Shown: positions 3,986 through 42,483 of the stretch, piece by piece
Position numbering within the stretch: the first letter of the stretch is position 1
Layout of the letters: every line of letters starts with the position of its first letter
Source: Desulfovibrio sp. TomC
Lineage (GTDB): Bacteria; Desulfobacterota; Desulfovibrionia; Desulfovibrionales; Desulfovibrionaceae
Direction of reading: 5' to 3'
NCBI RefSeq assembly: GCF_000801335.2
Contig: NZ_JSEH01000006.1
Location: 1-64,000 of the forward strand
DNA: 64,000 bases
Translations under genes and position numbers: made by a program
The notes under the pieces: generated by a model
Seen by the model: only the letters and a program-made list of their open reading frames with translations
Told to the model about the DNA's origin: nothing
The model's database searches: none

Positions 3986-4001
3986 TGGCATACCGTTTGC
4001 T
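3986..4001 (+). promoter_or_regulatory. Sigma54-type (-24/-12) promoter of the glycan operon
   Basis: TGGCATACCGTTTGCT has the invariant GG and GC with exactly the sigma54 spacing and matches TGGCA and TTGC. It lies after the terminator and about 100 bases before the first gene of the cluster. It would make transcription depend on an enhancer-binding activator. The call rests on the motif and its position only. Confidence 0.55.
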
Positions 4002-4100: not shown

Positions 4101-5177
4101 ATGTCCACGTCTTTGCCGCATTCGCCGGACAGCAGTCCTTCCCGGCCCCTGCCGGATGACGCCAAAACAGCCTTCCTGATCGAACGGTTGCTTCGCTTGG
4201 CCGGCCGAGGGCTCGGCGCGTCTGCGGCGGTCACCGCCCTGCTCGGGGATGTGGTCGATACCCTGCGCATTTTGGAAGAAGCCGGACGGCTCGATCAGGC
4301 CGGCGCCCTGGCTGCGGCGGCCAAGAACCTGCGGACCGCCACCCGGGACCTGGATCTGGTGCGGGCCAAAATTTTTGCCGGGCTTGGCAACCCGTTGGCG
4401 GCAAAAGAAGCCCTGAAAGAGGAATTGCGGTACTTCCCGGACAACGAACCGGCCCGGGCCATGCTCGCCGCCCTGGAAGCCGGGATGCCGGGCGGCATTC
4501 CGGAGCTTGATCCTGATCTGGCCGCAATCCTGCCGATCATTCAGCCGTACACCATGGTCGGCCTGCCCCGCCTGGCCTCGTTGTTTTACTTGGCCAAACG
4601 GGCCTGCCAGAGGGATATCCCTGGGGATTTCGCCGAATGCGGCGTGGCCGCCGGCGGGACCAGCGCCCTGCTGGCCTATGCGATCAAACAGTACAGCCAA
4701 CGCCCCAGACGGCTGTACTGCTTCGACACCTTCTCGGGCATGCCCGATCCGAGTCCGCAGGACCTGCACGCCGGCCAGGAGGCCAATGCCACGGGCTGGG
4801 GAGCCGGCACCTGCGCCGCGCCCGAGGCCAGCCTGCGCGAAGTCTGCCGCCGCCTCGGGGTGGAAGACCTCATTGCCCCGTTTCCCGGCTTGTTCAAGGA
4901 CACGCTGCCAGTCGTCGCGCCGACCATGACCGGTCTGGCCCTGCTGCATATGGATGGGGACTGGTACGAATCCACCCGGGACATCCTGGTCAACCTCTAC
5001 GATCTGGTGGCCGCAGACGCCCTGATCCAGGTGGATGACTACGGCTATTGGGAAGGATGCGACCAGGCCTTGGCCGAATTTTTTGCCAAGCGGCAGGAGC
5101 ACATGGCCTTGCGGCGCATTCCCGGCGGCGTGGGCGCCGTCCTGGCCAAGTCCGGGACCAAACGGTCAGGCAGCTAA
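4101..5177 (+). CDS. TylF/MycF-like SAM-dependent O-methyltransferase with N-terminal helical repeat region
   Basis: A 358 aa cytoplasmic protein. The C-terminal half (~140-350) matches the macrocin O-methyltransferase TylF/MycF family: a SAM loop FAECGVAAGG near 177, HMDGDWYEST near 281 and the metal-binding DDYGYWEG near 312, which is where this family binds Mg2+ and the sugar hydroxyl. The first ~125 residues are TPR-like alpha helices ending in ALKEELRYFPDNEPARAMLA, a segment that reappears at the end of the last gene of the cluster (near 17150). AGGAGA lies ten bases before the ATG. It is the first gene after the sigma54-like promoter and its stop abuts the next start. It probably methylates a sugar hydroxyl; the substrate is unknown. 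Confidence 0.82.
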   Translation: MSTSLPHSPDSSPSRPLPDDAKTAFLIERLLRLAGRGLGASAAVTALLGDVVDTLRILEEAGRLDQAGALAAAAKNLRTATRDLDLVRAKIFAGLGNPLAAKEALKEELRYFPDNEPARAMLAALEAGMPGGIPELDPDLAAILPIIQPYTMVGLPRLASLFYLAKRACQRDIPGDFAECGVAAGGTSALLAYAIKQYSQRPRRLYCFDTFSGMPDPSPQDLHAGQEANATGWGAGTCAAPEASLREVCRRLGVEDLIAPFPGLFKDTLPVVAPTMTGLALLHMDGDWYESTRDILVNLYDLVAADALIQVDDYGYWEGCDQALAEFFAKRQEHMALRRIPGGVGAVLAKSGTKRSGS

Positions 5178-7283
5178 ATGACGCCGCACCGGCCACACCA
5201 CCCGCCCGAGGCGAACACGAAGCGTTGGCTGCTCAATCTCGGCTGCGGCGGCACGCACCACCCGGCGTGGACGAACATCGATTTCACCCCGATGCCGCCG
5301 GATGTGTTGGGCTACGACCTGGGTCGGGAAATTCCGTTTCCGGACAACACCTTTCAGGCTGTCTATCATTCCCACCTCCTGGAGCATCTGCCCAAGCGAA
5401 CGGCCCCCCTGTTTTTGGCGCAATGCTTGCGGGTGTTGCAGCCGGGAGGCGTGTTGCGCCTGGCCGTGCCAGACCTGGAAGGCATTGCCCGGGCCTATCT
5501 GGCGACCGTGGACGGGCTGGAACACGGCCAGCCGGAAGCCGAAGACCGGCATGCCTGGATGGTGGTGGAACTGGTTGACCAGCTGACGCGGCATGTTTCG
5601 GGCGGCGAGATGCTGCAGTTTTGGCGGCAGCAACCGATGCCGGCCCAGGACTTTGTCCTGTCCCGCATTGGGGCCGAGGCCCGCCCGGCCATGGCTGCGG
5701 CCAAGGACCTGCCCCCCTCGCCGGATCCCGCCCTGGCCACGCCCGAGGCAATCGGACAATTTCGGCGTTCCGGCGAGTGCCACCTGTGGATGTACGATCG
5801 GTTTTCCTTGCGCCGGCTGTTGGAGGAGACGGGATTTACCGATATTCGCGTCGTTCCCGCGTCGGTCTCCGACATTCCCGATTTTGCCGACTATCAGCTC
5901 GACGTCGAAGCCGACGGCCGGACCCGCAAGCCGGATTCACTGTTTATGGAGGCCCGCAAACCGGACGCGCCGGACGCGCCGGGCCTGCGGGTGGCGCAGT
6001 ACTGCATGCAGCATACCGGCGGGGCCGGCAGCGCCGCCCTGCGGCTGCACCAGGGCTTGCAAGCCATCGCGGCCAACACCTTTCTCTACGTCTCCAAGAG
6101 CGCCCAGCCCTGTCCCGGCGTCGCCGTCATCCCGGCCGCGCCGGGACAGGCCCTGACCCGGGACGAGACCGGACAAAGCCTCATCCACGCCCAATGGCCG
6201 GCCTTTCTCCAGCGCAACAAGGCCCTGCTGGCCCACTATCCGCAGCGCCCGCCGTATCTTGAAATGTTTTCCGGGTCCGAGACTGCCGGGCGCATATCCG
6301 ATATTCCCGCCATGGAATTGACGGACATCCACCACCTGCACTGGATCGGCGGCACAGTGGATATTTGCGGCGACACGGCCTTTCTCAAGGGCCGGCCCCT
6401 GGTGTGGACCCTGCACGACATGCACCCCATAACCGGCGGCTGCCACTACGCCGGTTCCTGTCGGGGCTTCGAACGCCATTGCGGCAGCTGCCCCCAGCTG
6501 GGTTCCTCCGACGACGCCGACCATTCCCGTCGGGAATGGCTGCGGAAAAAGGCCGCCTACCGGGAACTGGACATCACCGTTGTCTGCCCCAGCCGCTGGC
6601 TGGCCCAAGAGGTGCAAAAAAGCAGTCTTCTTGGCAAAAAACCCGTCCACGTCATCCCCAACGGCGTGCCCACGGATGTTTTCAAGCCCTTGCAGCGCAC
6701 CCTGATCCGCCAGCATCTGGGTCTCGGGGCTGAGGACTTTGTCCTCATTTTTGGCGCGGACGCCATGGCCACGCGCCGCAAAGGCCTGGCCGAACTGCTC
6801 GCCGCCCTGCACCAGCTCAGCGCCGGCAACAACGCTTCCCGGCTCGTCCTGTTGACTTTCGGTTCGCATGAAGGCCTGGACCCGGCAGCGCTGCCCTGTC
6901 GCAGCCTCAACCTGGGACGGCTGGGCACGCCCATGGAACTGGCCCTGGCCTACAACGCGGCGGACTGCCTGCTTGTCCCGTCCCTGGAAGACAATCTGCC
7001 AAACGTGGTGCTGGAGGCCATGGCCTGCGGCGTCCCGGTGGCCGGCTTCGCCACCGGAGGGATTCCTGACATGGTGGAAGACGGCACAACCGGCCGGCTG
7101 GCCCCCACCGGAGACGCCCAGGCGCTGGCCCGGTGCATTGCCGACCTGCGCGACCTGCCGGCCAGGCAGCAGGCGCTTTGCCGTCTCCAGTGCCGGGAAA
7201 CCGTCCTGTCCCGCTTCACGCTCATGGCCCAGGCCCGGGCCTACAGCGACCTGTACCGTCGCGTGCTGGAAGCGCGGCGCTGA
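5178..7283 (+). CDS. Fusion of class I SAM methyltransferase and GT4-type glycosyltransferase
   Basis: A 701 aa two-domain protein. Residues ~12-225 are a methyltransferase: LLNLGCGGTHHPAWTNID is the SAM-binding loop and HSHLLEHLPK the later motif, with the typical LQPGGVLRLAVPD strand. Residues ~265-700 are a GT-B fold family 4 glycosyltransferase: QHTGGAGSAALRLHQGL near the domain start, HVIPNGVPTDVF, and the donor-binding LEAMACGVPVAGFATGG with EDGTTGRLAP near the end. The ATG directly follows the TAA of the previous gene, so translation is probably coupled. The fusion suggests that sugar transfer and O-methylation act on the same growing glycan; acceptor and sugar are unknown. Confidence 0.85.
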   Translation: MTPHRPHHPPEANTKRWLLNLGCGGTHHPAWTNIDFTPMPPDVLGYDLGREIPFPDNTFQAVYHSHLLEHLPKRTAPLFLAQCLRVLQPGGVLRLAVPDLEGIARAYLATVDGLEHGQPEAEDRHAWMVVELVDQLTRHVSGGEMLQFWRQQPMPAQDFVLSRIGAEARPAMAAAKDLPPSPDPALATPEAIGQFRRSGECHLWMYDRFSLRRLLEETGFTDIRVVPASVSDIPDFADYQLDVEADGRTRKPDSLFMEARKPDAPDAPGLRVAQYCMQHTGGAGSAALRLHQGLQAIAANTFLYVSKSAQPCPGVAVIPAAPGQALTRDETGQSLIHAQWPAFLQRNKALLAHYPQRPPYLEMFSGSETAGRISDIPAMELTDIHHLHWIGGTVDICGDTAFLKGRPLVWTLHDMHPITGGCHYAGSCRGFERHCGSCPQLGSSDDADHSRREWLRKKAAYRELDITVVCPSRWLAQEVQKSSLLGKKPVHVIPNGVPTDVFKPLQRTLIRQHLGLGAEDFVLIFGADAMATRRKGLAELLAALHQLSAGNNASRLVLLTFGSHEGLDPAALPCRSLNLGRLGTPMELALAYNAADCLLVPSLEDNLPNVVLEAMACGVPVAGFATGGIPDMVEDGTTGRLAPTGDAQALARCIADLRDLPARQQALCRLQCRETVLSRFTLMAQARAYSDLYRRVLEARR

Positions 7284-7312
7284 TTGCCGGCCTCACGCCT
7301 CAGGAGACACGC

Positions 7313-10273
7313 ATGCTCATGCCCTTTCCCGGAGCGGTCCGGGGAAAAAAATCCAGCCTCCCGGCCCCGACCCCCGTTGTCGGGCCGGGCTCCTTCGGAC
7401 CGCTCGCCTGGCCGACCTGGCGGGATTTTTCCCAATTGGCCCAGGCCTATGCGGAAGAGCTCTATGGCTATCCCATCGATGTGCGCCGCAGCGCCATGCC
7501 ATGCCTGCAGGAATTGCTGTGTTACGCCTTCATCCGCCAAAATGTGCCGGGCGGCGCACGCCTCCTGGCGGTCGGAGGCGGCCGGTCCCGGGTGCTGGCC
7601 GCCTTGGCCCCGGACTACGAGTGCTGGTGCATTGATGCCTTTGACGGCGTCGGCGGCAGCGCCGCAGCCATGCCCTTGGGCTATGGCTACAAGATGCTTG
7701 CGGACGCCATGGGCCACGGCAATCCGCTGTTGCCGGCGGCCTCCTTTGATTTTGTCTTCTCCATCGCCGGCCCGGGACACCGCCGCCCGGAGTCGGAGAG
7801 TGCCCTGCGCTCGGTCTTTGAGGACATGAGGCGGGTGGCCAAGCCCGGTTCCTACGCCCTTTACTGCCTGGACTATGTCCGCCGGGAAGGGACTTCTTCC
7901 GCCGGCGAGGGAGCGCGCCTGTATCGCGCCGCTTCGGAGTTCTTTGAGCCTGTCACGGCATTTACAGCGGTTGAAGACATCTATTCGACGCGCCTGTATG
8001 CCCTGCCGGAGAAACCGTACAACGAATTCGTGCTTCCGGTGACCCGACAAAAAATGTCCGATTTCGGCGATATTTTTTCCTGCAATGCCTTGTTCCAGAC
8101 GCCGCAAGCCGCACCCCGGCCGCACCATATCCCTTCAGGCCCGCACCCCCTGTCGGTGTCGGTTCCTGAAAAGCGGCTTCCCCGCCTCCATCTGGTCACA
8201 CCGTGCCACAATGACCGGGCCTTCATCGAGCACACCATTTCGAGTGTTGTCAGCCAGAAAGGCCATTTTTATCTCCACTACCACGTAGAGGACGGCGGCT
8301 CGACCGACGGCACACCGGACCTGCTACGCCAATGGGAGCAGGATATTGCCAGCGGCGCCAGCCCCATCCGGTGCGCCGGCATCGCCTTTTCCTGGGACAG
8401 CGCCCCTGATGTCGGCCGGTATGACGCCCTGAACCACGTGCTGGCCAGACAGGCGGCGGATGAGGACTTTGTCGGCTGGCTCGCTGCCGACGCCTTCCTC
8501 ATCCCCGGCGCGTTGGCCGCCGTAGCCGAAGTTGCCGCCCTGTGTCCGAATGTCGAATGGGTCCTGGGCCAGGGGCTTTTTATCCGGGAAAACGGCGAGG
8601 TGGAGCAATACGATCCCGAGACGCGCTACCCGCGCGAAGTGGCGGCGGCCGGCCTGTGCGACGGGCAGCTCTGGCAGTCCATCCCCCAGGCCGGGACCTT
8701 CTGGCGCGCCGCCCTCTGGCGTCGGGCGGGAGGCTTCGACCCCCGCCTCGCCGACGCCGCCGCGTGGGACCTGTGGCGGCGTTTTGCCGACGCCGCCGTG
8801 CCCTTTCAAATCCTGGCCCCGCTGGGAGCCTGCCTCCAACGAGAGGGCCGGACAGCCGACGCCGCCACGGCCTCCCGGGAGGCAATCGACCGCCTGCTCC
8901 CCGCCGGGGAACGCCGCGCCCGCCTGGAAGCCTTGCAACACAGCGGCCGGATGACGGTTCGCTGCATCGAGCCGTCGCCCGCCGGGGAACTGCGCAACCT
9001 GACCGCGCCCGAGGGCCGCCAGCCCCAGTCAGGCAAGGACTTTTTCGCCGACATGTACGGCAACCGCGAGGCCTTGCGGACCTTTTGCCGGCAACGCAGC
9101 CGGGAGCTGGCCGGCCGGGGAGACTGCGGGACGCCGCTTTTTTCCGTGGTCACGCCCTCGTACAATCAGGCCCAATACATTGAAGAGACCATCATGGCCG
9201 CGCTGCTCCAGGGCGAGGACCGGTTTGAACATATCATCATGGACGGCGGATCCACGGACGGCACCGTGGAGCTTCTGGCGCACTATCCCCATCTGCAATG
9301 GACCTCGGAAAAAGACCGCGGCCAGACCCATGCCCTGAACAAGGCCCTGGCCCTGGCCCGGGGCGACATCGTTGCCTGGATCAATTCCGACGACTATTAC
9401 ACGCCAAACGCGTTTGCCGCTGTCGCCAACGCCTTTTCCGCTCCCGGCGTGACCATGGCCCTGGGCGGTTGCCTGTGGATCTACGAAGGGACAGACAACG
9501 TCAGGCTCGTTCCCGGGCGAACTATTGGATTCCAAGAGATGATTCGCTATTGGAACGATCTGACGCCGCCGCCCCAGCCAGCCCTTTTTTTCCGTCGCAG
9601 TTTACTTGACGCTGTTGGTTACTTCGATGAAAATTTACATCTGACTATGGATTATGACTTCTGGCTCAGGACAACCGGACAAGGCGAGCGCATCATTGGC
9701 CTTGAGGCGTTACTGGCCATCTATCGTTTCCACGGCGGCTCCAAGAGCGGGAATCAGGATGACTGGCGTCCATTTTATGCCGAATGGCACCACTGTTACC
9801 AGCGGTATCGATCATTTGCCGCAGCCTTGCCGCCAAGCCCGTTGCTCACGGTGGCGCTTCCCTGGGGAGTGCCGTCGTTTGATCAAGAACGTCGCGTGCG
9901 GGATTTTCTCGAACGGGCCACTGGCGACAAGTTTCGGGACATGGAAGTGCTCATCGTCGCCGATGCCCAACATCCAGTGCCTGACTCGTTGCTCCGCGAT
10001 CTGCCCGTTCCGGGACGGATCGTTTGTGCTGCCACGGTTACTCCAGAAATTTTCCTGCGTCAGGCCTACGGGTCCGCGCGCGGGGCCATCATTTGGTTTC
10101 CTTCCCTGCATGAAACTCTTGAAAACAAGTGGTTCATGCGACCGTTGAATCTGCTGTTAGATGACAAGGACAGGCCTTACGCCGACGTGCCTGCCGCCAT
10201 CGGCCCGGCCAGCCACAGCTTTTTGCCGGAGAAAAGCGCCATAACCTGCCAGAGATTTTATCGATTGGCATGA
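7313..10273 (+). CDS. Three-domain protein: SAM methyltransferase plus two GT2 glycosyltransferases
   Basis: A 986 aa protein. Residues ~45-240 look like a divergent methyltransferase (LLAVGGGRSRVLAAL as the SAM loop). Residues ~285-500 are a first GT2 domain (LVTPCHNDRAFIEHTISSVV, then EDGGSTDGT). Residues ~610-840 are a second, more typical GT2 domain (FSVVTPSYNQAQYIEETI, MDGGSTDGTVELL, WINSDDYY with its DXD-like acid pair, and a tryptophan-rich acceptor region DYDFWLRTTG). The last ~130 residues are unassigned and less GC-biased. The ATG at 7313 follows AGGAGA by five bases; the upstream in-frame extension overlaps the previous gene. Two transferase modules suggest synthesis of a disaccharide or alternate linkages. 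Confidence 0.85.
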   Translation: MLMPFPGAVRGKKSSLPAPTPVVGPGSFGPLAWPTWRDFSQLAQAYAEELYGYPIDVRRSAMPCLQELLCYAFIRQNVPGGARLLAVGGGRSRVLAALAPDYECWCIDAFDGVGGSAAAMPLGYGYKMLADAMGHGNPLLPAASFDFVFSIAGPGHRRPESESALRSVFEDMRRVAKPGSYALYCLDYVRREGTSSAGEGARLYRAASEFFEPVTAFTAVEDIYSTRLYALPEKPYNEFVLPVTRQKMSDFGDIFSCNALFQTPQAAPRPHHIPSGPHPLSVSVPEKRLPRLHLVTPCHNDRAFIEHTISSVVSQKGHFYLHYHVEDGGSTDGTPDLLRQWEQDIASGASPIRCAGIAFSWDSAPDVGRYDALNHVLARQAADEDFVGWLAADAFLIPGALAAVAEVAALCPNVEWVLGQGLFIRENGEVEQYDPETRYPREVAAAGLCDGQLWQSIPQAGTFWRAALWRRAGGFDPRLADAAAWDLWRRFADAAVPFQILAPLGACLQREGRTADAATASREAIDRLLPAGERRARLEALQHSGRMTVRCIEPSPAGELRNLTAPEGRQPQSGKDFFADMYGNREALRTFCRQRSRELAGRGDCGTPLFSVVTPSYNQAQYIEETIMAALLQGEDRFEHIIMDGGSTDGTVELLAHYPHLQWTSEKDRGQTHALNKALALARGDIVAWINSDDYYTPNAFAAVANAFSAPGVTMALGGCLWIYEGTDNVRLVPGRTIGFQEMIRYWNDLTPPPQPALFFRRSLLDAVGYFDENLHLTMDYDFWLRTTGQGERIIGLEALLAIYRFHGGSKSGNQDDWRPFYAEWHHCYQRYRSFAAALPPSPLLTVALPWGVPSFDQERRVRDFLERATGDKFRDMEVLIVADAQHPVPDSLLRDLPVPGRIVCAATVTPEIFLRQAYGSARGAIIWFPSLHETLENKWFMRPLNLLLDDKDRPYADVPAAIGPASHSFLPEKSAITCQRFYRLA

Positions 10274-10321
10274 TTGCAGCATTGCTGTCTGCAGGCTGTC
10301 CTCTGAGGAGAATTCCACGTT

Positions 10322-11500
10322 ATGCCGGATTCTGCCAAGTCACCAAACGGACAATTGAAACTTTCCGTCATTATCCCGACCTGCAACCGGGCCGACATCA
10401 TCGTCGAGAACCTCCGTTGCCTGTCGCGGCAACTGTTGCCGGCGGACCACTACGAAGTCCTGGTTGGCGACGACGCCTCTGCCGACGATACCTTTGCCCG
10501 CCTGCAGGGGGAACGCACGCCCTATGCCTTGCGTCTGTTCCGCATGGATGAGCGCAGCGGTCCGGGCAAGGTCAGGAATCGGCTCATTGCCGAGGCAAAG
10601 GCCGAAAAACTGGTTATTTTAAATGACGACGCCCTGCTTGCGGCCAGCGGTCTGGCCATGCACGAGGAAGTGCTGGAGATGACGCGCGGCCGCAATATCG
10701 CGGTGCTGGGCAAATTTTCCTTTCCTGAGGATTTTCAGCAGACGGTCATGGGGTGCCTGCTCGAACACACCAATCTCTCCTTTCGCTATCCGCTCATGGA
10801 ACCGCATTCCCTTTACGGAGCCATGGGGTTTTATTCCTGCAATCTCGGCATCTATAAATCCGCAGTGGTCGAGGCGGGCGGCTTTGACGAAGGTTTGCCC
10901 GGAACAGGGGCCGAAGACATCGAGCTTGGCGATCGGCTGGCCAAGCGCGGCCATATGGTGCTTTACATCGACGAGTGTCTGGCCATCCATGAGCACCGGC
11001 TCACCATCCACGATTTCTGCCGCGCCCAGATCGGCCGGGGAGCCGGAGGGGTCCTTCGCCCCTTCAACCAACCCGAACTGGTCTTTCATTACGACGACAT
11101 CGACCCGGACGCCCTGGCGCGTCTTCGCCAGGAGCTGCCCAAGGCCCAGGCGGCCGTCACGGCCCTGGCCGATGCGGTCCACGCCCTCCATCTGCGCTCC
11201 AGGCCCGATGCCTCCATCGTCCTTGGGACGGAGATCCCCTGGCGCGATGAACCGTTGCGCTACAGCTCCCACACCCTGTGGCGTCTGGACGCCGCCGGCA
11301 TGGCCAAGGAAGCCCAGCAAGCCCTGCGTGAGGTCACAAGCCTGCACTTGCTCAAAAAATTGAAGCCGCAGGCGCTTGGCGCGCTGTTTCAGGTTTGCTC
11401 TTTGCTCAAATGGTATTACGACACGATTGGCGTGGCACAGTCGCCCTGGATCGATGCCTTTGCCGCTGACACGCCGCGCCGGAAGCTGTCCCGGGGCTAG
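10322..11500 (+). CDS. GT2 family glycosyltransferase
   Basis: A 392 aa GT-A fold transferase. LSVIIPTCNRADIIVENLRC and GDDASADDTF form the nucleotide-sugar site, LNDDALLAASG gives the DXD metal motif near residue 100, and EAGGFDEGLPGTGAEDIELG is the acceptor/catalytic segment typical of chain-forming GT2 enzymes. The remaining ~130 residues are helical and unassigned. A GAGGAG sits eleven bases before the ATG. It is the only single-activity glycosyltransferase of the operon. About 210 GC-rich bases without a recognisable gene follow. Confidence 0.86.
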   Translation: MPDSAKSPNGQLKLSVIIPTCNRADIIVENLRCLSRQLLPADHYEVLVGDDASADDTFARLQGERTPYALRLFRMDERSGPGKVRNRLIAEAKAEKLVILNDDALLAASGLAMHEEVLEMTRGRNIAVLGKFSFPEDFQQTVMGCLLEHTNLSFRYPLMEPHSLYGAMGFYSCNLGIYKSAVVEAGGFDEGLPGTGAEDIELGDRLAKRGHMVLYIDECLAIHEHRLTIHDFCRAQIGRGAGGVLRPFNQPELVFHYDDIDPDALARLRQELPKAQAAVTALADAVHALHLRSRPDASIVLGTEIPWRDEPLRYSSHTLWRLDAAGMAKEAQQALREVTSLHLLKKLKPQALGALFQVCSLLKWYYDTIGVAQSPWIDAFAADTPRRKLSRG

Positions 11501-11755
11501 ACCCGCCGTTCGCGTGGTTGTTGCCGTCCGGGACTGCCAAAGGGCAACACGGTGCATTGGCCGCTTGACGCACAGCCAACAGACAGGTGTTAGCTGCGTC
11601 CGACATGCGGCAGCGGCCCGGAGGCGTGCGATCAGTGCCCCCTCCTCCCGGCCAGGAACACGGGGAAAGCGGTGTCCTGTTGTTTGTCAAAAACTTGACC
11701 AACCCTGCCCGGAATGCATGCGCGGCACGTGGCGCAAAATTTGCTTCTCAAAATT

Positions 11756-12619
11756 ATGACCCAATTCCCCACGACATACACCCTTGAGACCGTGCTTGGC
11801 TGCAACCTCCGCTGCCCGGAATGCGCCGTTGGCGGCGGGCTGGTCAAGCGCAAGTACGGCCAGATGCGCCTGGAGCAGTACCTGACGCTGGCGGAGAAAA
11901 TCCGTCCCTATGTACAGTATCTGTACCTGCACTTGTGGGGTGAACCGCTCCTGAACAAAAATATTTTCGCCATGCTGCGCCACGCCGGCCAGTTCACCCG
12001 CACCAATATCAGCACCAATGCCAATCAGTTTGACAAGACAACGGCCAAGGACCTGATCCAAAGCGGCGTTTCGGACATCATTGTCTCCATCGACGGGGTC
12101 ACCCAGGCCGTCTACGAAAAATATCGCCGTCGCGGCGATGTGAGCAAAGCCATCCGGGGCCTGTTTTGGCTCGCCAAATACAATGCCGGCCGGGCAACGC
12201 CGGCAACCATCACGCCGCAATTCATCGTCTTCGAGCACAATCAGCACGAACAAGAGGCCTTTGCCCGGCTCTGTGCGGAAATCGGCCTGACGCCCAGTTT
12301 CAAGGCCCCGTACCTCCGACCGGGCTCAATGCTCAAGGCCACGGGCCTGCCCGGCCTGACCCGCGTGGCCGCCACGGATCCCCAGGCCCGTTGCCAGGCC
12401 ATGCGGGCCTGTCCCAATGTGCGCGACGTGCTGACCGTGCACCTCGACGGCCGGGTCGTGGCCTGCTGCTATGACCACAACGGGGCCACTGGTTTTGGGA
12501 ATCTCTACGAGCAGAGCCTGGAGGAGATCTGGCTCTCGCCTGGCTACCGGGAGTTCCGTCAGCGGGTCCTCGACGGGCGTCCGGACGCCTTTTGCACCCA
12601 GGAGTGCCTGCTCTACTAG
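11756..12619 (+). CDS. Radical SAM/SPASM domain protein of the glycan cluster
   Basis: A 287 aa radical SAM enzyme. The 4Fe-4S/SAM motif is GCNLRCPECAVGG (CX3CX2C) near residue 14, followed by LHLWGEPLLN and ISTNANQFD, typical of the family. The last ~75 residues contain Cys-rich segments (RCQAMRACP, VACCYD, FCTQECLLY) like a SPASM region carrying an auxiliary cluster, with HLDGRVVACC as the signature. Neither this ATG nor the in-frame ATG at 11714 has a good ribosome site; this one is closer to the conserved start. Related enzymes in surface-polysaccharide loci modify sugars or peptides by radical chemistry; the substrate here is unknown. Confidence 0.8.
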   Translation: MTQFPTTYTLETVLGCNLRCPECAVGGGLVKRKYGQMRLEQYLTLAEKIRPYVQYLYLHLWGEPLLNKNIFAMLRHAGQFTRTNISTNANQFDKTTAKDLIQSGVSDIIVSIDGVTQAVYEKYRRRGDVSKAIRGLFWLAKYNAGRATPATITPQFIVFEHNQHEQEAFARLCAEIGLTPSFKAPYLRPGSMLKATGLPGLTRVAATDPQARCQAMRACPNVRDVLTVHLDGRVVACCYDHNGATGFGNLYEQSLEEIWLSPGYREFRQRVLDGRPDAFCTQECLLY

Positions 12620-12797
12620 CCCTGCCGGAAGAAAGGCGCTCTTACGGCGTGAAACAAGGCCCGCGCTCCAAGCGCCTGCCTCGGATCCGCATCCTCCCGT
12701 CGGGCTGCACCGTAGCCTTGCGGCCCCATCGCCGTCAGAGCATACAACCGTCTCCGAGACGCAGACTCTCGGGCCGAAGAAGGATGGACACGCCCCA

Positions 12798-14771
12798 ATG
12801 AAAATCAACCTGTGCAGCGGCTCTGTCCGCCTTCCCGGCTGGGTGAATGTGGACATCCAGGGCGCGGACGTGAACATCGATCTGGAACGTGACCTCCTGC
12901 CTTTCCCGGACGCTTGCGCCCAGACGGTGGTCTGCATCTCGGCCCTGAACTACTTCACCCGTGCCCGCGCCCTGACCATCGTGCAGGAGGTGCTCCGCAT
13001 CCTGGTCCCAAACGGGATATTGCGAATCGGGGTACAGGATTTGCGCATCCTGGCCCGCAGCTACCTGGAAAATGATGCGTCCTTCTGGGCGCAGACCCTG
13101 GCCGACGGCAGTCCGCGTTTCCCCGGGCCGACTTTTGCCGACAAGCTCAATGGTTTTTTTTACGGCTTCCCTGCCCATGGGAAGGCCTGTAAATATGTCT
13201 ACGATGCCGATTCCCTCGCTTATTTGCTGGCGGAGGCGGGCTATACCCAAATTGCGCCGCGCGCCTACCGCCAAAGCGTCATTCCCGAGGTGGAGAGCAT
13301 CGATAACCGGCCCGAGCAGATGTTTTTCATGGAAGCCAGCAAACCCCAGGCCGGACTGCTGGACAGCGCCCGGGAACTTGCCGCTGCCGGGCGCAATGAG
13401 CCGGCCTGGCAGATGGTGCTGGCCGCCATGGACCTTGATCCCGGAGACGTCCAGGCACGCAAGGCAGCCGCCACCGTCGCCCTGGAAACCGGGCAGCCGG
13501 AACAGGCTCAAAAGGCTCTGGAGGGCATGCCCGCCAATCCCGCCCTGGACAGGCTGCGCCAGTCCGCAGCCCGCCTGGCCACATTCAAGGCCGCCAAGGC
13601 CCAGCCTTTGTTGTCCAAAAAACAGCTCGACGCCCTGGACGACAGGCCGGGCCTGGTTCTTGACGACTTGTCCCACCTCCAGGCCGCTATGGGCTGGCTG
13701 GCGCACGCCCGCAGCGTCAGTCGGGACCGGGGCGTGCCCGCTGTCTACCACCTGACCCGGCAGGCCTGGGATGTCTCCTACCCGGAAACCACCGGCTATT
13801 TTATTGCCACATCCCTGGCCTACGCCCGCCTGACCGGCGATGCCGCCTGGACTGACGCCGCGCGCGACATGGGGTTGTGGGAAATCGACATTCAGTCCCC
13901 AGGCGGCGGCGCCGGCGAACCCGTTGGCGTGGTCCTGCCCAAGCCCCGGGTCTTTAATACCGGACAGGTGATGCTTGGCTGGCTGGCCTTGTGGAACGCG
14001 ACCCAGGAGCGGGAGTTTCTGGACGCAGCCGTGCGCGCGGGGGACTTTGTCCTCAGGAACCAGGATCCGGACGGCGCATGGCGGCGCTACGTGTACCAGG
14101 GGCCGCGGGCGTATAAAATGCGGGTGGCCTGGGCGCTGTTGGAACTTTTCGATGCCTGCGGCGAACGACGCTTCCGCGACGGGGCGGCCAAGGCGCTGCA
14201 CTGGGCGCTGCTTCAAGCGCATCCGGATGGCTGGTTCGCCCAAAACAGCCTCAGCGCGCCGGACAAGCCCTGGACGCATTTGATCGGTTACGCGCTGGTG
14301 GGGCTGGCCCAGGCCCTGCGGACCAAGGACGCGCCGTTGGACCGTGAGCCGACCCTGGCGCTGCTCGACCAGGCTGCGGCGCATCTATGCCGGCGCGTGG
14401 AAGCCATGAGCGCGGATGGATCGCTGGAGCGCCTTCGCGGCCTGCCCGGGACCTTCGGTCCCGGTTGGCAGAGTGCGGATTGCTGGAGTGCGGTGACTGG
14501 CAACGCCCAGCTGGCCCATTTTCTCCTGATCATGGACGCGCTGGGGCGCGATCCGGCCTGTCGCAGCGCGGCCGACGCACTGGTGACCCAGTGCAAGCGC
14601 ACCCAGTTCCTGGGTACGGGAGATCCGGCCCTGGACGGCGGCCTGCCCGGCAGCACCCCCGTCGGCGGCGGCTACTGCGCCTATCAGATCCCCAACTGGG
14701 GCGTGAAATTTTTCGCCGACTGCTTCCTGGCCCGCGCCGGGTACGACAGGCCCGGCAATTGCCTGGGATAA
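12798..14771 (+). CDS. SAM methyltransferase fused to a six-hairpin (alpha/alpha barrel) domain
   Basis: A 657 aa protein. Residues 1-185 are a reduced methyltransferase: INLCSGSVRLPGWVNVDIQG binds SAM and VVCISALNYFTR replaces the usual HxLEH motif. Residues ~190-260 are a TPR-like hinge (DLDPGDVQARKAAA). Residues ~290-650 look like an alpha/alpha six-hairpin barrel as found in unsaturated glucuronyl hydrolases and C5-epimerases (repeated W and aromatic helices, NQDPDGAWRRY, AYKMRVAWALLELF, NWGVKFFADCFLAR). It may bind or edit a glycan chain. The ATG at 12798 has only a weak ribosome site, and the longer in-frame start at 12471 overlaps the radical SAM gene. The barrel assignment is by pattern only. 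Confidence 0.72.
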   Translation: MKINLCSGSVRLPGWVNVDIQGADVNIDLERDLLPFPDACAQTVVCISALNYFTRARALTIVQEVLRILVPNGILRIGVQDLRILARSYLENDASFWAQTLADGSPRFPGPTFADKLNGFFYGFPAHGKACKYVYDADSLAYLLAEAGYTQIAPRAYRQSVIPEVESIDNRPEQMFFMEASKPQAGLLDSARELAAAGRNEPAWQMVLAAMDLDPGDVQARKAAATVALETGQPEQAQKALEGMPANPALDRLRQSAARLATFKAAKAQPLLSKKQLDALDDRPGLVLDDLSHLQAAMGWLAHARSVSRDRGVPAVYHLTRQAWDVSYPETTGYFIATSLAYARLTGDAAWTDAARDMGLWEIDIQSPGGGAGEPVGVVLPKPRVFNTGQVMLGWLALWNATQEREFLDAAVRAGDFVLRNQDPDGAWRRYVYQGPRAYKMRVAWALLELFDACGERRFRDGAAKALHWALLQAHPDGWFAQNSLSAPDKPWTHLIGYALVGLAQALRTKDAPLDREPTLALLDQAAAHLCRRVEAMSADGSLERLRGLPGTFGPGWQSADCWSAVTGNAQLAHFLLIMDALGRDPACRSAADALVTQCKRTQFLGTGDPALDGGLPGSTPVGGGYCAYQIPNWGVKFFADCFLARAGYDRPGNCLG

Positions 14772-14793
14772 GACGGACCGCAAGGAGGATGGG

Positions 14794-17217
14794 GTGGAAC
14801 ACGCCAAGATGCAGTGCAGGACGCCTTTCCCGTGTCCGGCCGAGGCCCTGGCCGACCCGGGCCGGGGACTCGGTCTGGCCCGGACCCTGTGGAGCCGCAA
14901 CCGGCGGGAAATGGCCCTGGACGTCTATGACCAGCTCGCCCAGGCCCATCCCGGGTACGCCGTGCCCTTGCTGGCCGAGGCCTATGACCGCATGCGCGAA
15001 ATCGATCCGCCCACCCGGTACACCTTGTACCAGTCGCGCTTTTTCGACTTTGCCATTGCCCCGGGCGACACTGTGCTCGATATCGGCAGCGGGCACATGC
15101 CATTCCCCCTGTCCACGCACCTGGCCGACATTTCCCTGACCGACGGCCAGGTCGGTCGGGCCGGAGCAGCCTTTCGCCACGTGGACGGCAAGCCGGCCTA
15201 CGAAGTCCGGGTGGAAAACACCGGCTTCGCCGACAAACAGTTCGACTTCGTCTACTGTTCCCACGTGTTGGAGCATGTCAGCGATCCGACCGCCGCCTGT
15301 CGGGAACTGATGCGCATCGCCAAACGCGGCTATATCGAGACTCCCACCAAGGGCAAGGACACCCTGATGGGCAGCGCCCGCGTCTCCAACCACCGCTGGC
15401 ATGTGGAGCGCCTGGGGGAGACGCTGGTTTTTACGGAGTATGAAGCGCGGGATCTGGCCGGCTTTGGCGTGGACATCCTCATGAACATGCACATCAACCC
15501 CAGGACAGACCGGGAAAAAGCCTTCTCGGCCCTGATCTGGCTGCGCGCCGACCAATGCAACACCATGCTGGCCTGGGACGGCAGCTTCGACTTCGAGGTG
15601 CGCCGGCCGGCCGCCGCGCCCCGGTCAGTCCACTGCGCGACAACGACGCCGCCCCGCCCGGCCCCGGAACCAATGCCGGAGGCGCCGCAGGCGCCGCGCC
15701 CGTTGCGCCTGATGCAGGTGCACACGTTTTACGCCGACTATCTCCATGCCTTTTATTCCCGACGCCCAGGCCTGGCGTACGCTCCCTATGCCGAACAGGT
15801 CGCGGCCCTGCGCAGCGACGGATTTAGCGCCGTGCATCTGCTGGCCGAACACCTGGGGCCTCTCGGCTACGAGGCCCAGCTGGTGGTGGCCAACAATCTG
15901 GCCGCCCAACATGCCTGGGCCTTTGAGCAGGGTCTGGCCGACCACAGACGGGGTCCTTCCCAGGAGGACATTCTCCTGGCCCAGGTGGAGGCCTTTGCCC
16001 CGGACGTGCTGTATTTATCCGACCCGATCACCTTTGACGCGGGCTTCGTGCGCAAACTTTCGCCCCGGCCCCGGCTGGTGGTGGGCTGGCGCGCGGCCAA
16101 CATCCCCCATACCTGGGACGCCACGGAATTCGACCTGATCCTGTCCAACCTGGCGGGACTGCGGGACAAGGCCCTGGCAATGGGAGCGCGCGACGCCGCC
16201 CATTTCCACCCCGGCTTTCCGGAATCCCTGTTGGCCGCCGTGAAAGACCAGGAGCCTACCCACGACGTGTGCTTCTGCGGCCAAATAAACGCCAGCCAGT
16301 ACCGCAGCCGCAACGCCCGCCTCCATCTGTTGGCCAATGGCTGCGCCCAGGGACGCTTTGGGCTGCGCCTGAACCTTTCCGGCCACCTGGAGGCGGCAAC
16401 GCCGCTGTTGCGGGCCGCCAATACCGGTCCCTGCTTCGGCCTGGACATGTACCGGGCCTTGCGCTCCGGGCGCATCGTGTTTGACGCCCGGGGCGACATC
16501 GGCCTGCTTGGCCCCGATGGCGCGGCGCACGATCTGGCCGGCCGCCAAACCGCCAACATGCGGATCTTCGAGACAACCGGCGTGGGGGCCTTCCTGCTGA
16601 CCGAGCATTTTGACAATGTCGAGGAGTATTTCCAGCCGGGCCGCGAGATCGAGACCTATGCCGACGACCGTGAGCTGCTGGAGAAAATCGACTATTACCT
16701 CAAGCACGAGGACCAACGTCTGGAAATCGCGGCCAGGGGCCTTGCGCGCTGCAGAAAACAGCATTCCATCCGGGCGCGCGCCAGGGATTTCGACGCCCTG
16801 ATCCGGGAACGCCTGGTTGCTTCTCCGGGCGAAAGCCAAACGGCCCTCTTTGCTGCGCGGCCATCGCCGGAATTCGTTACCGCCAAGGCCGCTGTGCTGA
16901 CGCAAAAATTGGAACGCCTGGCCTTCCTGGGGTCGGTTCCGGAAGATGCGGTGCGCCGGCTGCTCGGAGACATCACGCCCGTCACCAAGGCCTTGCTCCA
17001 GGCCGACGCCTTCCAGGCCGCCCTGGCCCTGACCGGCGCAGCCAAAGCCTTGCAGGTTCCGGTCAACAACCTCGAGTTCCTGCGCGCCCTGGCCTTCCTT
17101 GCCCTGGACGAACGCGCATCGGCCCGGGAAGCGCTCACGGAGGAACTGCGCCTGTTCCCCGACAATGCCGAGGCCAGGGCCATGCTGCTGGCCCTGGCTG
17201 AAGAGCCCATGGCCTGA
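14794..17217 (+). CDS. SAM methyltransferase fused to a CgeB-like GT-B glycosyltransferase
   Basis: An 807 aa protein closing the operon. A TPR-like start is followed by a methyltransferase at ~70-230 (VLDIGSGHMPFPLSTHL, then YCSHVLEHVSDP). Residues ~305-650 resemble CgeB/spore-maturation type GT-B transferases (LRLMQVHTFYADYLHAF, FAPDVLYLSDP, HDVCFCGQINASQYRSR, RIFETTGVGAFLLTEH). The C-terminal ~120 residues are helical and end ALTEELRLFPDNAEARAML, nearly the same as the segment near residue 105 of the first gene of the operon. GTG at 14794 is chosen because AGGAGG lies five bases upstream; an ATG follows at 14809. Role: sugar transfer plus methylation on the same glycan, by inference. Confidence 0.83.
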   Translation: MEHAKMQCRTPFPCPAEALADPGRGLGLARTLWSRNRREMALDVYDQLAQAHPGYAVPLLAEAYDRMREIDPPTRYTLYQSRFFDFAIAPGDTVLDIGSGHMPFPLSTHLADISLTDGQVGRAGAAFRHVDGKPAYEVRVENTGFADKQFDFVYCSHVLEHVSDPTAACRELMRIAKRGYIETPTKGKDTLMGSARVSNHRWHVERLGETLVFTEYEARDLAGFGVDILMNMHINPRTDREKAFSALIWLRADQCNTMLAWDGSFDFEVRRPAAAPRSVHCATTTPPRPAPEPMPEAPQAPRPLRLMQVHTFYADYLHAFYSRRPGLAYAPYAEQVAALRSDGFSAVHLLAEHLGPLGYEAQLVVANNLAAQHAWAFEQGLADHRRGPSQEDILLAQVEAFAPDVLYLSDPITFDAGFVRKLSPRPRLVVGWRAANIPHTWDATEFDLILSNLAGLRDKALAMGARDAAHFHPGFPESLLAAVKDQEPTHDVCFCGQINASQYRSRNARLHLLANGCAQGRFGLRLNLSGHLEAATPLLRAANTGPCFGLDMYRALRSGRIVFDARGDIGLLGPDGAAHDLAGRQTANMRIFETTGVGAFLLTEHFDNVEEYFQPGREIETYADDRELLEKIDYYLKHEDQRLEIAARGLARCRKQHSIRARARDFDALIRERLVASPGESQTALFAARPSPEFVTAKAAVLTQKLERLAFLGSVPEDAVRRLLGDITPVTKALLQADAFQAALALTGAAKALQVPVNNLEFLRALAFLALDERASAREALTEELRLFPDNAEARAMLLALAEEPMA

Positions 17218-17276: not shown

Positions 17277-18488
17277 CTATTGGGCGTTTAGGCTGTCGAA
17301 CCAGTCCTTCTGGTCGAGGACGCCAAAGAGAAACGTCCCCCTATGGTCGGCGCGGTCCCCGGCGTACACGGCCTCGGCCGGAGCTGCGCCGACCGCCTGG
17401 GCATAGTCCACCGGAAGCGTGGCCACGTAGGGGGGCATGACTTCGTCGATCTTGCCGTAATAATAGCGGCTGGGCGTCCTGTACCGCCAGCGGTAGGCCT
17501 GATTGTCCTGGAGCCGGCGGTAGAACCGGCTGTCGCTCATGGAGCTTTCGGCGGCAAATTCCGGCCGCAGCAACGCCCCGACCGTTCCGGGCAACGTCTT
17601 GGAAGCCTGCTCCCAGTCGATCTTGTTCGCATAAAGGTCCTTGGCGGTCTGCCAATACACATCCTTGATGGCCGCCCGGCTCAGGCCCGGCAGATCGTAG
17701 TAGTGTTCGTAGGCAAAAATAAACAGCAGCGGCGTGCCTGGAAGCCAGGCGGCGTCCAGCGACGTCGGGTTGTTGAGCCAGCGGGTCAGCAACAGATACA
17801 GATCGCTTGGCGTGCTGGCCGTGGCTGCGGCCTTGACCGGAATATCCAGAATTTCGAGCTTGTGGCGAAACTGCATCGTGGCCCAGGCCCCCTGGGACCA
17901 ACCGCTGAGAAAAAGGCCTTGCTGCGTGAGTCCCAGGTCCGAACAGACCACGCGGGACGCGAACAGCATGTCCAGACAGGCTTGCGCCGTGACGTCCCTG
18001 ACCATGTAGCTGTCCGGCTCCGGGGAATCGCCTTTGCCGACGTAGTCTGCGCCGATGACAATATACCCCTGCCCGGCGAACCGGGCGATCATGAGCCGCG
18101 TTTCCATGGACTCCTCGGGATGCGAGGGCACGGCCGTTTTCGTGAACACGGTGCCGTGCTGGTAGGAAACGACCGGCAGGGTCTTTTGGGCCGTCTGCGG
18201 CACGGCAATCAGGCCGCTCGCCGTCGTCGGTCTGTTGCCCAGTTCCGGGATCACGGTTTCATAAATGACCTTGTAGAGGCTGACGGCATTTTTCGCCGGC
18301 GGATAGCTGATCTTGAAGGCACTGAAGTCCGCCAGTTCCCCGGTCAGGATCGTATTGAGCCGCTCGACGCTGTACTCGCCAAGGTGTTCGTAGCGGACCG
18401 AGGGTTGGCCAGGGGGCAGGGGCGCGGCCAGGGCGGAAAACGACAGAATGGTGAAAAGCACCCCCAGGGCCAGGGCAACACGTCGCAT
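17277..18488 (-). CDS. Secreted alpha/beta-hydrolase (lipase/esterase-like)
   Basis: A 403 aa exported hydrolase. MRRVALALGVLFTILSF...LAA is a cleavable signal peptide. The nucleophile elbow is LSGWSQGAWA with Ser near residue 180, the oxyanion region is VVSYQHGTVF, and a C-terminal His candidate lies in DRADHRGTF; an Asp candidate is in YGKIDEVMPP. The arrangement (ASGLIAVP, SYQHGT, GADYVGKGDS) is that of secretory lipase/cutinase-like esterases of ~400 residues. ATG at 18488 follows AAGGAG by six bases, and the frame upstream lacks a ribosome site. It converges on the glycan operon and is monocistronic. The natural substrate is unknown. Confidence 0.82.
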   Translation of the reverse strand: MRRVALALGVLFTILSFSALAAPLPPGQPSVRYEHLGEYSVERLNTILTGELADFSAFKISYPPAKNAVSLYKVIYETVIPELGNRPTTASGLIAVPQTAQKTLPVVSYQHGTVFTKTAVPSHPEESMETRLMIARFAGQGYIVIGADYVGKGDSPEPDSYMVRDVTAQACLDMLFASRVVCSDLGLTQQGLFLSGWSQGAWATMQFRHKLEILDIPVKAAATASTPSDLYLLLTRWLNNPTSLDAAWLPGTPLLFIFAYEHYYDLPGLSRAAIKDVYWQTAKDLYANKIDWEQASKTLPGTVGALLRPEFAAESSMSDSRFYRRLQDNQAYRWRYRTPSRYYYGKIDEVMPPYVATLPVDYAQAVGAAPAEAVYAGDRADHRGTFLFGVLDQKDWFDSLNAQ

Positions 18489-19263
18489 AAACGCTCCTTG
18501 GCGGCCGTTGCGGCCACGGTTGTCGGCAACAATGCAGGCCAAATTTTGTACCATGACCAGACGCGGGGTCGGGCCTCGCCGTCACAGACCGTTCCGGTAG
18601 GGCTCATGACGACTGCGAGGCGGCGCCGTTGTGCGTCCCCTGCCTTCCGGGATACAGGAACGCATCGGCCTCTTTGATGGTGTCGTCAATGGATTTTCCC
18701 ACAGCAAAGGGTGCGACTCCTCAAGGTGTTGGACGAGCACCGCCCGCCTGCCAGGCCTCGCTCCAGAAGTCTGCAGTGGCACGTTGTTCCCAATGCGAAA
18801 GGACTCCCGACTTTTTGCCCTCCCCGGGCATGTTTTGTGGCGAAAAAAACGGGAGATAGCCCCCATAGCCCCTTGAATGCCATACTGTTTCGACTTTTGA
18901 ACGATCGCTTCGGAAGCGGTAAAACAATATGGCCTTCACTGGTTCCTGCCAAGAGACAGGCGTATCCCTGCGGCCAACAAACCACCATGCTGCCATCAGG
19001 CAGGCAAAGACTCTTTGGCGTCCCTGCCAAGGTGTTCTTGGAAACGACCGACTGGCAAAGACATGCACGGTTATTCCAAAATAACCAGTGTACGGGGTGT
19101 ACCTTTTCGCTCCCCCTGCCCTTCATTCCGTCTATTTGGCCCATGTTGCGTACGCTGCTTGACAGCTGCGCATCAGAAAGAGTAAAAAAATAAACAAATT
19201 TTATGGTTCCATTGGCGTGTGTAACAAACTGATATTGCAACAGTCTTACATATGGAGGTCGTC
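18489..19263. other. 775-base stretch without a convincing gene
   Basis: Lies between divergent hydrolase and thaumatin-like genes. Several short frames exist on both strands, the longest ~200 codons on the minus strand (18686-19291), but none has a ribosome site, domain or the codon bias of neighbours. Base composition is lower in GC than the surroundings, with A/T-rich DNA from 19170 to 19250 that probably contains the promoter of the thaumatin-like gene. It may be decayed coding sequence. Confidence 0.4.
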
Positions 19264-21836: not shown

Positions 21837-22170
21837 ATGCGAAACGACACGGTCGTCGCCTACATTTTGGATGGGCACGGCTATTTTGACGACCGCCGTG
21901 ACGCCTTGGCCTTCGAGATGGTGGGCGCGGGCTGGGTGGATGTGGACAGGGACTGTCGCTGTGGCCCCGAAACCACCGTGCTCTACGAACGCAGCGGGCA
22001 AACGGTGGAAATAGTCGCTTTGGACAGAGCATTGCGCATCGTGCGCTTCAGCGGGAAACCGCTTGGCGAGCCCATCGCCAGGTACGGCCCCATCGTCATG
22101 AACACCCAGGCCGAACACGGGCAAGAAGACGCCGTCGGTGAAGCGTGCGCCCATACAGGCAGGATCATCT
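21837..22170 (+). pseudogene. Decayed pirin-family gene (C-terminal remnant)
   Basis: In the frame that stays open over 21801-22220 the peptide VVAYILDGHGYFDD, RDCRCGPETTVLYE and SGKPLGEPIARYGPIVMNT matches the C-terminal cupin of pirins; the last segment is close to the strongly conserved pirin motif. The N-terminal cupin with its HPHRG metal site is absent, there is no ribosome site, and after VMNT the usual EEL-rich helix is scrambled, which suggests a frameshift or internal decay. Intact pirins are ~230-290 aa iron proteins. This copy cannot be functional as it stands. Its GC-rich composition is like the genome average, so it is a local loss rather than recent import. Confidence 0.72.
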
Positions 22171-22254
22171 TCGGAAAGTTCTTGTACATGGCGGGAATGG
22201 GCTTATCGCAGCCGGCATGAGCCGCTTTGCCTAGCAGTATTGGGCAATGGCCTA

Positions 22255-23478: not shown

Positions 23479-24095
23479 ACATCACCAAGCAGCCAAACTA
23501 TGCTCTCTCTTTGCAGAGCGCCGTTTGATATTCGCCAAGCACCGCAACGGGAAACGGAAACCCTGTAACAACCTCTTGGCCTTGAATACGTAACGTGGAG
23601 CAAGGCACATCAAGGAGCGCCCCGACAGGAAACGCGCCCTTGACTGACAGCACTGCCGCTATCGGGAACGCATCGCCCCCTTGGCGAGCAGTTCCACACT
23701 ACCACACCAGACGAACAACCAACAAGCATATTTACTATTGCCCGCAGGCTTGCTTGGCATTCATTTGGTCCATAATAACCGACGATTTATTGTATTCCAA
23801 GAATATTTCGACAGAGGCGCCCGGGGCATGACTTCATTTCTAGCCGCAAGATTGGTCGCAATGCCTCAAAAAAGAACGTTCTTGGGCCGAAATATTTCAC
23901 CGACCCAAGCAAAACGGCACACATCCAAAGACATGGGCCTCACTCTACAATACGGGGAGAAGTCCAAGTGAGCCGACAACCACGAAACGCTTGAGATGAA
24001 ACAATTGTCTTTCTATTCTGCAGACTCTTGCCGGAGTGACGACAGTTCCAAGACATCCCGGCCGGCACTGGCTTGCCCCGGCCGCCCCGCCCGGC
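23479..24095. other. 617-base stretch without a recognised gene
   Basis: Between two minus-strand genes. It carries the upstream region of the HD-GYP gene and two weak plus-strand frames (23595-23831 and 23681-23971) that lack ribosome sites or known domains. Composition is intermediate between the AT-rich HD-GYP gene and the GC-rich genes to the right, so it may belong to the same acquired segment. Confidence 0.4.
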
Positions 24096-36019: not shown

Positions 36020-36055
36020 ATTATTTCAATCTATATTTGTAGACAAAATTGCCGT

Positions 36056-36610: not shown

Positions 36611-36631
36611 ATCACGCCTCTTTTGCCTTAA

Positions 36632-42353: not shown

Positions 42354-42483
42354 GGACGACCGGCCGTGTCGGCGGCGGGGTTGGATTGCGGTCCGAGTGC
42401 GCCGGCAGACGGTGCAATCGGACCGCGCCGGGCCGAGGCGAAAATAGGGCAAATCCGCGCCCTGGGCAAGGTCGGGCGGCAGC

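Follow-up and report, generated by a model that had tools for sequence, protein, structure and literature searches.

A colinear cassette of methyltransferase and glycosyltransferase modules in Desulfovibrio sp. TomC, with conserved domain order and moving gene boundaries in distant bacteria

Introduction

Fusions of methyltransferases with glycosyltransferases are already known from flagellin glycosylation. Here we describe a run of seven plus-strand genes at positions 4101-17217 of a 64,000-base stretch of the Desulfovibrio sp. TomC genome (contig NZ_JSEH01000006.1, positions 1 to 64,000; this whole stretch is called the window below), which contains several such fusions and has homologous sets in distant bacteria. 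The order of the domains is shared while the gene boundaries shift, and it is this conserved order with moving fusion points that appears to be new.

The glycosyltransferase family 2 (GT2) protein of Clostridioides difficile type B flagellin glycosylation, CDR20291_0242, carries PF08241 and PF00535 in one polypeptide, is encoded next to flagellin, and has been proposed to add and methylate rhamnoses, with the methylated second rhamnose perhaps stopping extension (PMC5207246). As described there, the locus is small and holds a single fusion, whereas the window has several fusions in seven genes; CgeB, TylF, barrel and radical SAM modules, as well as a multi-gene colinear order, do not figure in the passages describing it. 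Variable islands of glycosyltransferase (GT) and methyltransferase (MT) genes are found at flagellin, between fliC and fliA, in Enterobacteriaceae, where most GT41 enzymes and one GT2 enzyme bear methyltransferase domains (PMC4875605). The GT families of these islands are other than those of the cassette, and the text mentions neither TPR nor radical SAM, nor does it use the word fusion. In chlorovirus PBCV-1, the A064R protein combines two GT domains and a methyltransferase that were shown biochemically to act sequentially on one glycan, methylating the terminal rhamnose (PMC9614988). This enzyme builds a viral capsid N-glycan and is arranged GT-GT-MT, unlike the MT-GT-GT protein of the window; the two are compared here by domain make-up. 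Finally, Caulobacter FlmG consists of a TPR domain, which binds flagellin, and a GT-B glycosyltransferase, and modifies flagellins in the cytoplasm (PMC7591256). FlmG transfers pseudaminic acid and has no described fused methyltransferase; its TPR part is likened to those of the cassette by domain type. Among open-licence papers on flagellin in connection with CgeB, radical SAM/macrocin, Geobacter or Desulfovibrio, we found no description of the cassette.

Results

Domain content of the seven genes

The seven genes are separated by gaps of 0 to ~255 bases. The order of modules is TPR-TylF, MT-GT4, MT-GT2-GT2, GT2, radical SAM/SPASM, MT-barrel, and MT-CgeB-TPR (SAM, S-adenosylmethionine; TPR, tetratricopeptide repeat):

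4101-5177, + strand: TPR-like module (4101-4520) and TylF-type O-methyltransferase (4521-5153); Pfam PF05711, E 9.6e-38, and module hidden Markov models (HMMs)
5178-7283, + strand: class I SAM methyltransferase m2 (5202-5969) fused to GT4 (5976-7280); Pfam PF08241 and PF13692 (Glyco_trans_1_4)
7313-10273, + strand: divergent methyltransferase m3 (7313-8152), GT2 (8165-8911) and GT2 (9119-9811); PF00535 twice, and profiles
9803-10270, + strand: conserved C-terminal segment of the 7313-10273 gene; module HMMs
10322-11500, + strand: stand-alone GT2 glycosyltransferase; Pfam PF00535, E 3e-14
11756-12619, + strand: radical SAM/SPASM protein; Pfam PF04055 and PF13186; reading frame open from 11714
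12798-14771, + strand: methyltransferase m6 (12798-13325), short TPR region and (alpha/alpha)6 barrel (13611-14753); AlphaFold2 model, weak Pfam match
14794-17217, + strand: methyltransferase m7 (15019-15636) and CgeB-type glycosyltransferase (15694-16830); Pfam PF08241 and PF13524
within 14794-17217, + strand: weak TPR-like N-terminus and TPR-like C-terminal module (16861-17211); module profiles

The starts at 7313, 11756 and 12798 are probably the true ones, rather than those of the longest open reading frames (ORFs; 7133, 11714 and 12471), since the extended versions run into the gene before them or begin ahead of the first conserved domain.

The initial annotation, made from this sequence alone, held that four proteins begin with a SAM methyltransferase and continue into a GT4, two GT2, a barrel or a CgeB domain. 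Pfam, profiles and counterparts in other genomes agree with this assignment, and the N-terminal parts are supported as methyltransferases, m3 by profile comparison only and with a conserved motif lost. A separate TylF-like methyltransferase and a radical SAM protein had also been placed in the cluster, and both have Pfam matches above cut-off. The stand-alone GT2 gene (10322-11500) is missing from that annotation.

Sequence matches and a SAM-binding motif I together place m2, m6, m7 and TylF among class I SAM methyltransferases. The PF05711 match of the TylF domain is well above its cut-off, and MT_11 (PF08241) matches were obtained with the 5178-7283 and 14794-17217 proteins. Since Pfam alone is insufficient for m3 and m6, profiles and counterparts were used for these two. 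The N-terminal domain of the 7313 gene (m3) has no Pfam match; a four-member m3 profile matches solved SAM methyltransferases in the PDB (E 4.5e-6) and, in an hhalign comparison, m7 (90.6%, E 1.3e-6). A fold model of m3 was discarded (predicted local distance difference test, pLDDT, of 35; only two admissible sequences). Another m3-type methyltransferase-GT2 fusion, of 998 amino acids and adjoining a CgeB-like gene, is present on a different contig of the same genome (C3; L069:8565-11561).

Scores of the GT domains exceed the curated Pfam cut-offs (PF13692, 77.7 bits for GT4; PF00535, 124.7 and 53.7 bits for GT2; PF13524, 89.2 bits for CgeB). Two Glycos_transf_2 copies lie within ORF 7133-10273, and the CgeB-type domain of the last gene corresponds to Pfam Glyco_trans_1_2 (PF13524). 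The radical SAM/SPASM protein, with both of its Pfam domains above cut-off, contains CNLRCPEC, a CxxxCxxC motif. In the last protein, m7 is preceded by ~75 N-terminal residues with a weak TPR match, while its C-terminal end and the N-terminal start of the TylF protein carry TPR-like modules that are 44-45% identical to each other.

The barrel appeared GH127-like in a Pfam scan of ORF 12471-14771. In an AlphaFold2 model of the sixth protein (mean pLDDT 91), residues 288-655 fold as an (alpha/alpha)6 barrel, whose best structural neighbour is the unsaturated glucuronyl hydrolase 2fv0 (Z 32.2, 331 residues, 2.8 A), followed by the cellobiose 2-epimerase 9l8i (Z 30.5). The comparison bears on the barrel, the methyltransferase part being barely covered, and families missing from the structural matches are not counted as absent. 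With a sequence identity to these neighbours of only 9-16%, the modelled domain is assigned at the level of fold alone to the unsaturated glucuronyl hydrolase (GH88) or AGE epimerase type. The barrel family has 563 matching stretches in the genome collection; in the 80 loci kept, it is mostly a stand-alone protein of ~400 residues. The family spans very many phyla and two haloarchaeal plasmids (L173-L252, L067, L068). Both haloarchaeal copies bear the annotation prenyltransferase/squalene oxidase repeat protein, and the fold predicted for the window copy is nearer to sugar hydrolases and epimerases. A viral origin was rejected, as the barrel query found no relative in viral contigs.

Conserved module order and shifting gene boundaries

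We scanned neighbourhoods of up to 20 kb with module profiles. In the lines below, R stands for radical SAM, B for barrel, C for CgeB, T for TPR-like, Y for TylF, G4 for GT4, G2 for GT2 and m for methyltransferases; a slash marks a gene boundary.

L173, Geobacter: R-m6-B / m7-C-T-Y / G4 / G2 / G2
L175, Desulfonema magnum (finished genome): R-m6-B / m7 / C-T-Y / G4
L179, Ignavibacteriae: R-m6-B / m7-C-T-Y-m2 / G4-G2-G2
L181, Bacteroidota: R-m6-B / m7-C-T-Y-m2
G118: R / m6-B / m7-C-T-Y / G4
Window: T-Y / m2-G4 / m3-G2-G2 / G2 / R / m6-B / m7-C-T

A common order of radical SAM, m6-barrel, m7-CgeB, TPR-TylF, m2-GT4 and a GT2 series is found in Geobacter, Desulfuromonadaceae (L174), D. magnum, Ignavibacteriae, Bacteroidota, and G118 (L154), another member of the window's family, so that it extends over at least three phyla. 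Part of the cassette also occurs in Pararhodospirillum oryzae, a species in culture. Gene cuts differ between these loci, and most separate neighbours in the window are a single protein in some relative. Thus, TylF is fused to m2 in L179 and L181, GT4 to m3-GT2 in L111, and GT2 to GT2 in L106 and L111; in G051 and L106, the stand-alone GT2 forms one protein with the GT2 and the C-terminal segment that come before it. The radical SAM protein and m6 are fused in five loci (L173, L174, L175, L179 and L181), and CgeB-TPR and TylF form one protein in six (L154, L111, L173, L175, L179 and L181). No fused case of the GT2/radical SAM or barrel/m7 junctions was found in the fusion census.

The fusions present in the window are more than a chance occurrence, since the same ones recur in other genomes: with the window included, m6-barrel was found in 10 genomes, m2-GT4 in 8, and m7-CgeB in 8. 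Joins obey the canonical order except for CgeB-m2 on two Azospirillum plasmids, GT2-m3 in G178, where the gene order is reversed, and GT4-TylF in G328. The window has the same cyclic order in rotated form, beginning at TylF and ending at CgeB-TPR, and a TPR-like copy flanks the break on both sides. In G118, G337, L173, L175, L179 and L181, one TPR-like module bridges CgeB and TylF inside a single protein, and a rotation through duplication at this module would be the simplest reading. For six blocks, 1/120 of random cyclic orders would match, a simple count that ignores shared descent. The cassette itself, as a colinear methyl-glycan set, is very probably real. Such a conserved colinear arrangement with moving fusion points is beyond what the single sequence could have revealed to the initial annotation.

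Just upstream of the cassette, the Ignavibacteriae and Bacteroidota loci encode 616-residue proteins of similar look (L179:5741-7591 and L181:5591-7441), the former without a Pfam match.

Flagellin adjacency in relatives

Flagellins were searched for with Flagellin_N and their neighbourhoods were then read; flagellar proteins of the relatives were confirmed by Pfam. In Ignavibacteriae, the contig of the cassette (269,168 bases) continues with TPR, two GT2, flagellin, FliS, flagellin and FliD genes. The cassette of Desulfuromonadaceae is followed by giant GT proteins and then by FlbT and two flagellins. In Bacteroidota, the cassette contig stops inside GT4, and a 141-base end overlap connects it to a second contig with GT4-GT2, a GT9-type protein, TPR, GT2, flagellin, FliS and FliD. 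The Geobacter cassette contig overlaps by 25 bases, within a GT2 gene, with a contig that carries GT2 genes, FlbT and flagellin. In the Geobacter-containing order of G349, m7 was detected in 3 of 141 genomes, and all three islands reach flagellin and an FlbT or FlbT-like gene. In G178, FliW-like and flgL/flgK-like genes, read from sequence (flgL as a Flagellin_N match), lie ~7 kb from the cassette. Overall, gene neighbourhood supports a flagellar link in five distant genomes.

In the window's own genome, contig C10:86000-105999 (L058) carries flagellin, hook-type genes, GT9-like and CgeB-like genes and two GT2 genes, which by gene content appear to form a second, different flagellin-linked glycosylation locus.

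Distribution and inheritance

The full MT-GT4 fusion was found in 8 of 348 genomes of the window's order. In this set, uncorrected for relatedness, TylF co-occurs with GT4 (7 genomes versus 0.69 expected, P 3e-7), with CgeB (6 versus 0.57, P 3e-6) and with the barrel (3 versus 0.11, P 7e-5). The locus is not a conserved core of the genus, as CgeB, the barrel and TylF were present at module strength in few of 14 sampled genus genomes. A single inheritance history for all modules was likewise rejected. Distance matrices correlate for some pairs and not for others (m7-R, r 0.72, P 0.001; B-m7, r 0.67, P 0.001; C-Y, r 0.50, P 0.008; m6-Y, r 0.02; many pairs, uncorrected), and partial exchange of modules is therefore likely. 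The CgeB tree was only partly resolved.

Promoter-like site and surroundings of the run

3986-4001, + strand: sigma-54-type promoter-like site TGGCATACCGTTTGCT, 99 bases 5' of the first ATG; consensus match only

The site is the single perfect match to the TGGCAYRNNNNTTGCW pattern in the 64 kb of the window, with 0.08 expected from first-order shuffles. Some bacteria use sigma-54 for flagella. A sigma-54-type site before the operon would be compatible with flagellar control and by itself is no evidence for it. A promoter type shared with the organism's own flagellins was considered and rejected, their upstream regions scoring 16-20/24 versus 22/24 at the operon site.

About 2 kb upstream of the operon, a minus-strand gene (1108-1956) encodes a "putative rhamnosyl transferase" domain protein (PF11316, E 7.8e-27) that may take part in the same glycan pathway. 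A minus-strand gene (17277-18554) that converges on the end of the operon encodes a 425-amino-acid protein whose N-terminal stretch looks signal-like and which is weakly similar to lipase or peptidase S15 (E 0.006 to 0.03). G+C content, ~0.64 in the surroundings, dips to 0.46 at 22001-24000 and to 0.40 at 36001-38000; the 379-amino-acid ORF in the lowest dip (36632-37771, minus strand) has no Pfam match. A peptidase-C39 ABC transporter (39804-42452, minus strand) and an HlyD-type fusion protein (32535-33932, plus strand) may together form a secretion system that handles a peptide or a large protein.

Discussion

We consider it fairly probable that the cassette encodes a colinear assembly line for a methylated glycan, with flagellin or a comparable surface protein as its target. 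In the proposed mechanism, cytoplasmic glycosyltransferases (the CgeB type, GT4 and several GT2) would add sugars in succession, and each sugar, once added, would be methylated by the methyltransferase fused to or adjoining its glycosyltransferase. TPR-like modules may recruit the protein acceptor, as does the TPR part of Caulobacter FlmG, while the barrel may edit or epimerise a sugar and the radical SAM protein may carry out a further change. The computations show the domain content, the conserved order, the drifting fusion points and the adjacency to flagellin in relatives; we infer which sugars are involved, where they are methylated, the sequence in which they are added and what the barrel, the TPR-like modules and the radical SAM protein do, as well as the proposed glycan and its acceptor. 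The most likely acceptor would be flagellin, modified in the cytoplasm ahead of export, because the cassette has no flippase, polymerase or exporter and flagellin adjoins it in distant relatives. For the window organism in particular, the chances that flagellin is the acceptor are about even. The initial annotation had suggested a highly methylated glycan, perhaps flagellar or surface-borne, which is the right class; the flagellar part of this suggestion finds support in the neighbourhoods of the five distant genomes and not in the window genome.

Several observations weigh against this proposal. The flagellins of the window genome lie on other contigs (C5, C22, C11 and C10), none near the cassette, and the C10 flagellin has GT and CgeB-like neighbours of its own. 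Glycosyltransferase and sugar-modifying genes are grouped in one island in the window, as in a flagellin glycosylation island, and adjacency to flagellin is seen with the homologous cassettes of relatives and not at the window locus. Since the organism's own flagellins are elsewhere, we say that the locus works like a flagellin glycosylation island and do not file it as one. D. magnum has the cassette (L175, L268), followed by transposase-like ORFs, and no Flagellin_N match in its genome; its cassette is either a relic or has a different acceptor. The Geobacter contig join depends on those 25 bases only, and G472 has a partial cassette only (m7-CgeB, radical SAM and GT2 genes), with a GT island of ~20 kb before flagellin. 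Occurrence in the window's order is sporadic (CgeB in 20, TylF in 10 and the barrel in 4 of the 348 genomes), which suggests horizontal transfer. The MT_11 match of m6, in ORF 12471-14771, is 20.5 bits, just below the cut-off of 21.2; the call was counted as supported because the Geobacter counterpart, at 33.2 bits, is above it. In m3, the window copy reads SIAGPGHRRPE where relatives have SISALEHVP. The ALEHVP-type motif is thus lost though motif I (VGGGRS) and a later acidic residue are retained, making the activity of m3 uncertain, and by its motifs the window copy may be inactive. That the N-terminal Rossmann domains in general are degenerate scaffolds, leaving the glycan unmethylated by them, is suggested by the same two domains and seems highly improbable, since motif I and an acidic residue behind it can be made out in the fused domains, m7 shares 53-66% identity with its copies in several phyla, and TylF clears its Pfam cut-off so well.

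A different role, which we regard as unlikely, would be decoration of lipopolysaccharide O-antigen or capsular polysaccharide: the enzymes would elongate a lipid-linked chain and methylate it, perhaps capping it in this way, and genes at other loci would serve its synthesis and export. In G029, the contig with the CgeB, TylF and MT-GT4 genes also has Wzm/Wzt-like genes, at a distance of ~25 kb, as well as WecB-like and nucleotide-sugar dehydrogenase genes, an observation that counts against a flagellin role, although unrelated transporter genes and a transposase-like ORF separate the cassette homologues from the Wzm/Wzt-like set. CgeB is near a UDP-sugar dehydrogenase-like gene in G042 and G337, and in G042 near an epimerase-like gene as well; barrel homologues on the two haloarchaeal plasmids occur in polysaccharide-type clusters with sulfatases. 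However, neither the seven genes nor the scanned flanking genes include a flippase, polymerase or ABC exporter, the seven also lack a nucleotide-sugar gene, and in the five distant genomes the island extends to flagellin accompanied by FliS/FliD or FlbT. It is still less probable that in the window's genus and Desulfonema the cassette was recruited from flagellin to glycosylate another surface protein, such as an S-layer, adhesin or secreted repeat protein. The distance of the window cassette from flagellin and the presence of the cassette in Desulfonema, which gave no flagellin match, would fit, as would a CgeB-MT fusion on Azospirillum lipoferum plasmid AZO_p6 that has a very large calcium-binding protein ~9 kb away, but no gene for an S-layer, adhesin or repeat-protein acceptor was recognised next to the cassette of the window, and the m7-positive genomes of G349's order are all flagellin-linked.

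We also put forward, as a possible though rather doubtful extension of the flagellin proposal, that this is a previously undescribed flagellin-glycan line, spread horizontally over at least three phyla, in which domain order is fixed while gene cuts move. As part of the same tentative reading, one machine would be built from three giant proteins in certain bacteria and from seven smaller proteins in the window. A possible reason for the constant order is that the domains function in sequence within a single physical complex.

In bacterial protein glycosylation, it has long been difficult to assign individual linkages to individual glycosyltransferases. Natural fusions in a colinear cassette predict which methyltransferase is paired with which sugar, and supply ready-made multi-enzyme constructs. 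A fixed module order with changing gene boundaries is a natural experiment on why enzymes fuse. Should the acceptor be flagellin, the filaments of very distantly related bacteria would have a conserved methylated glycan in common.

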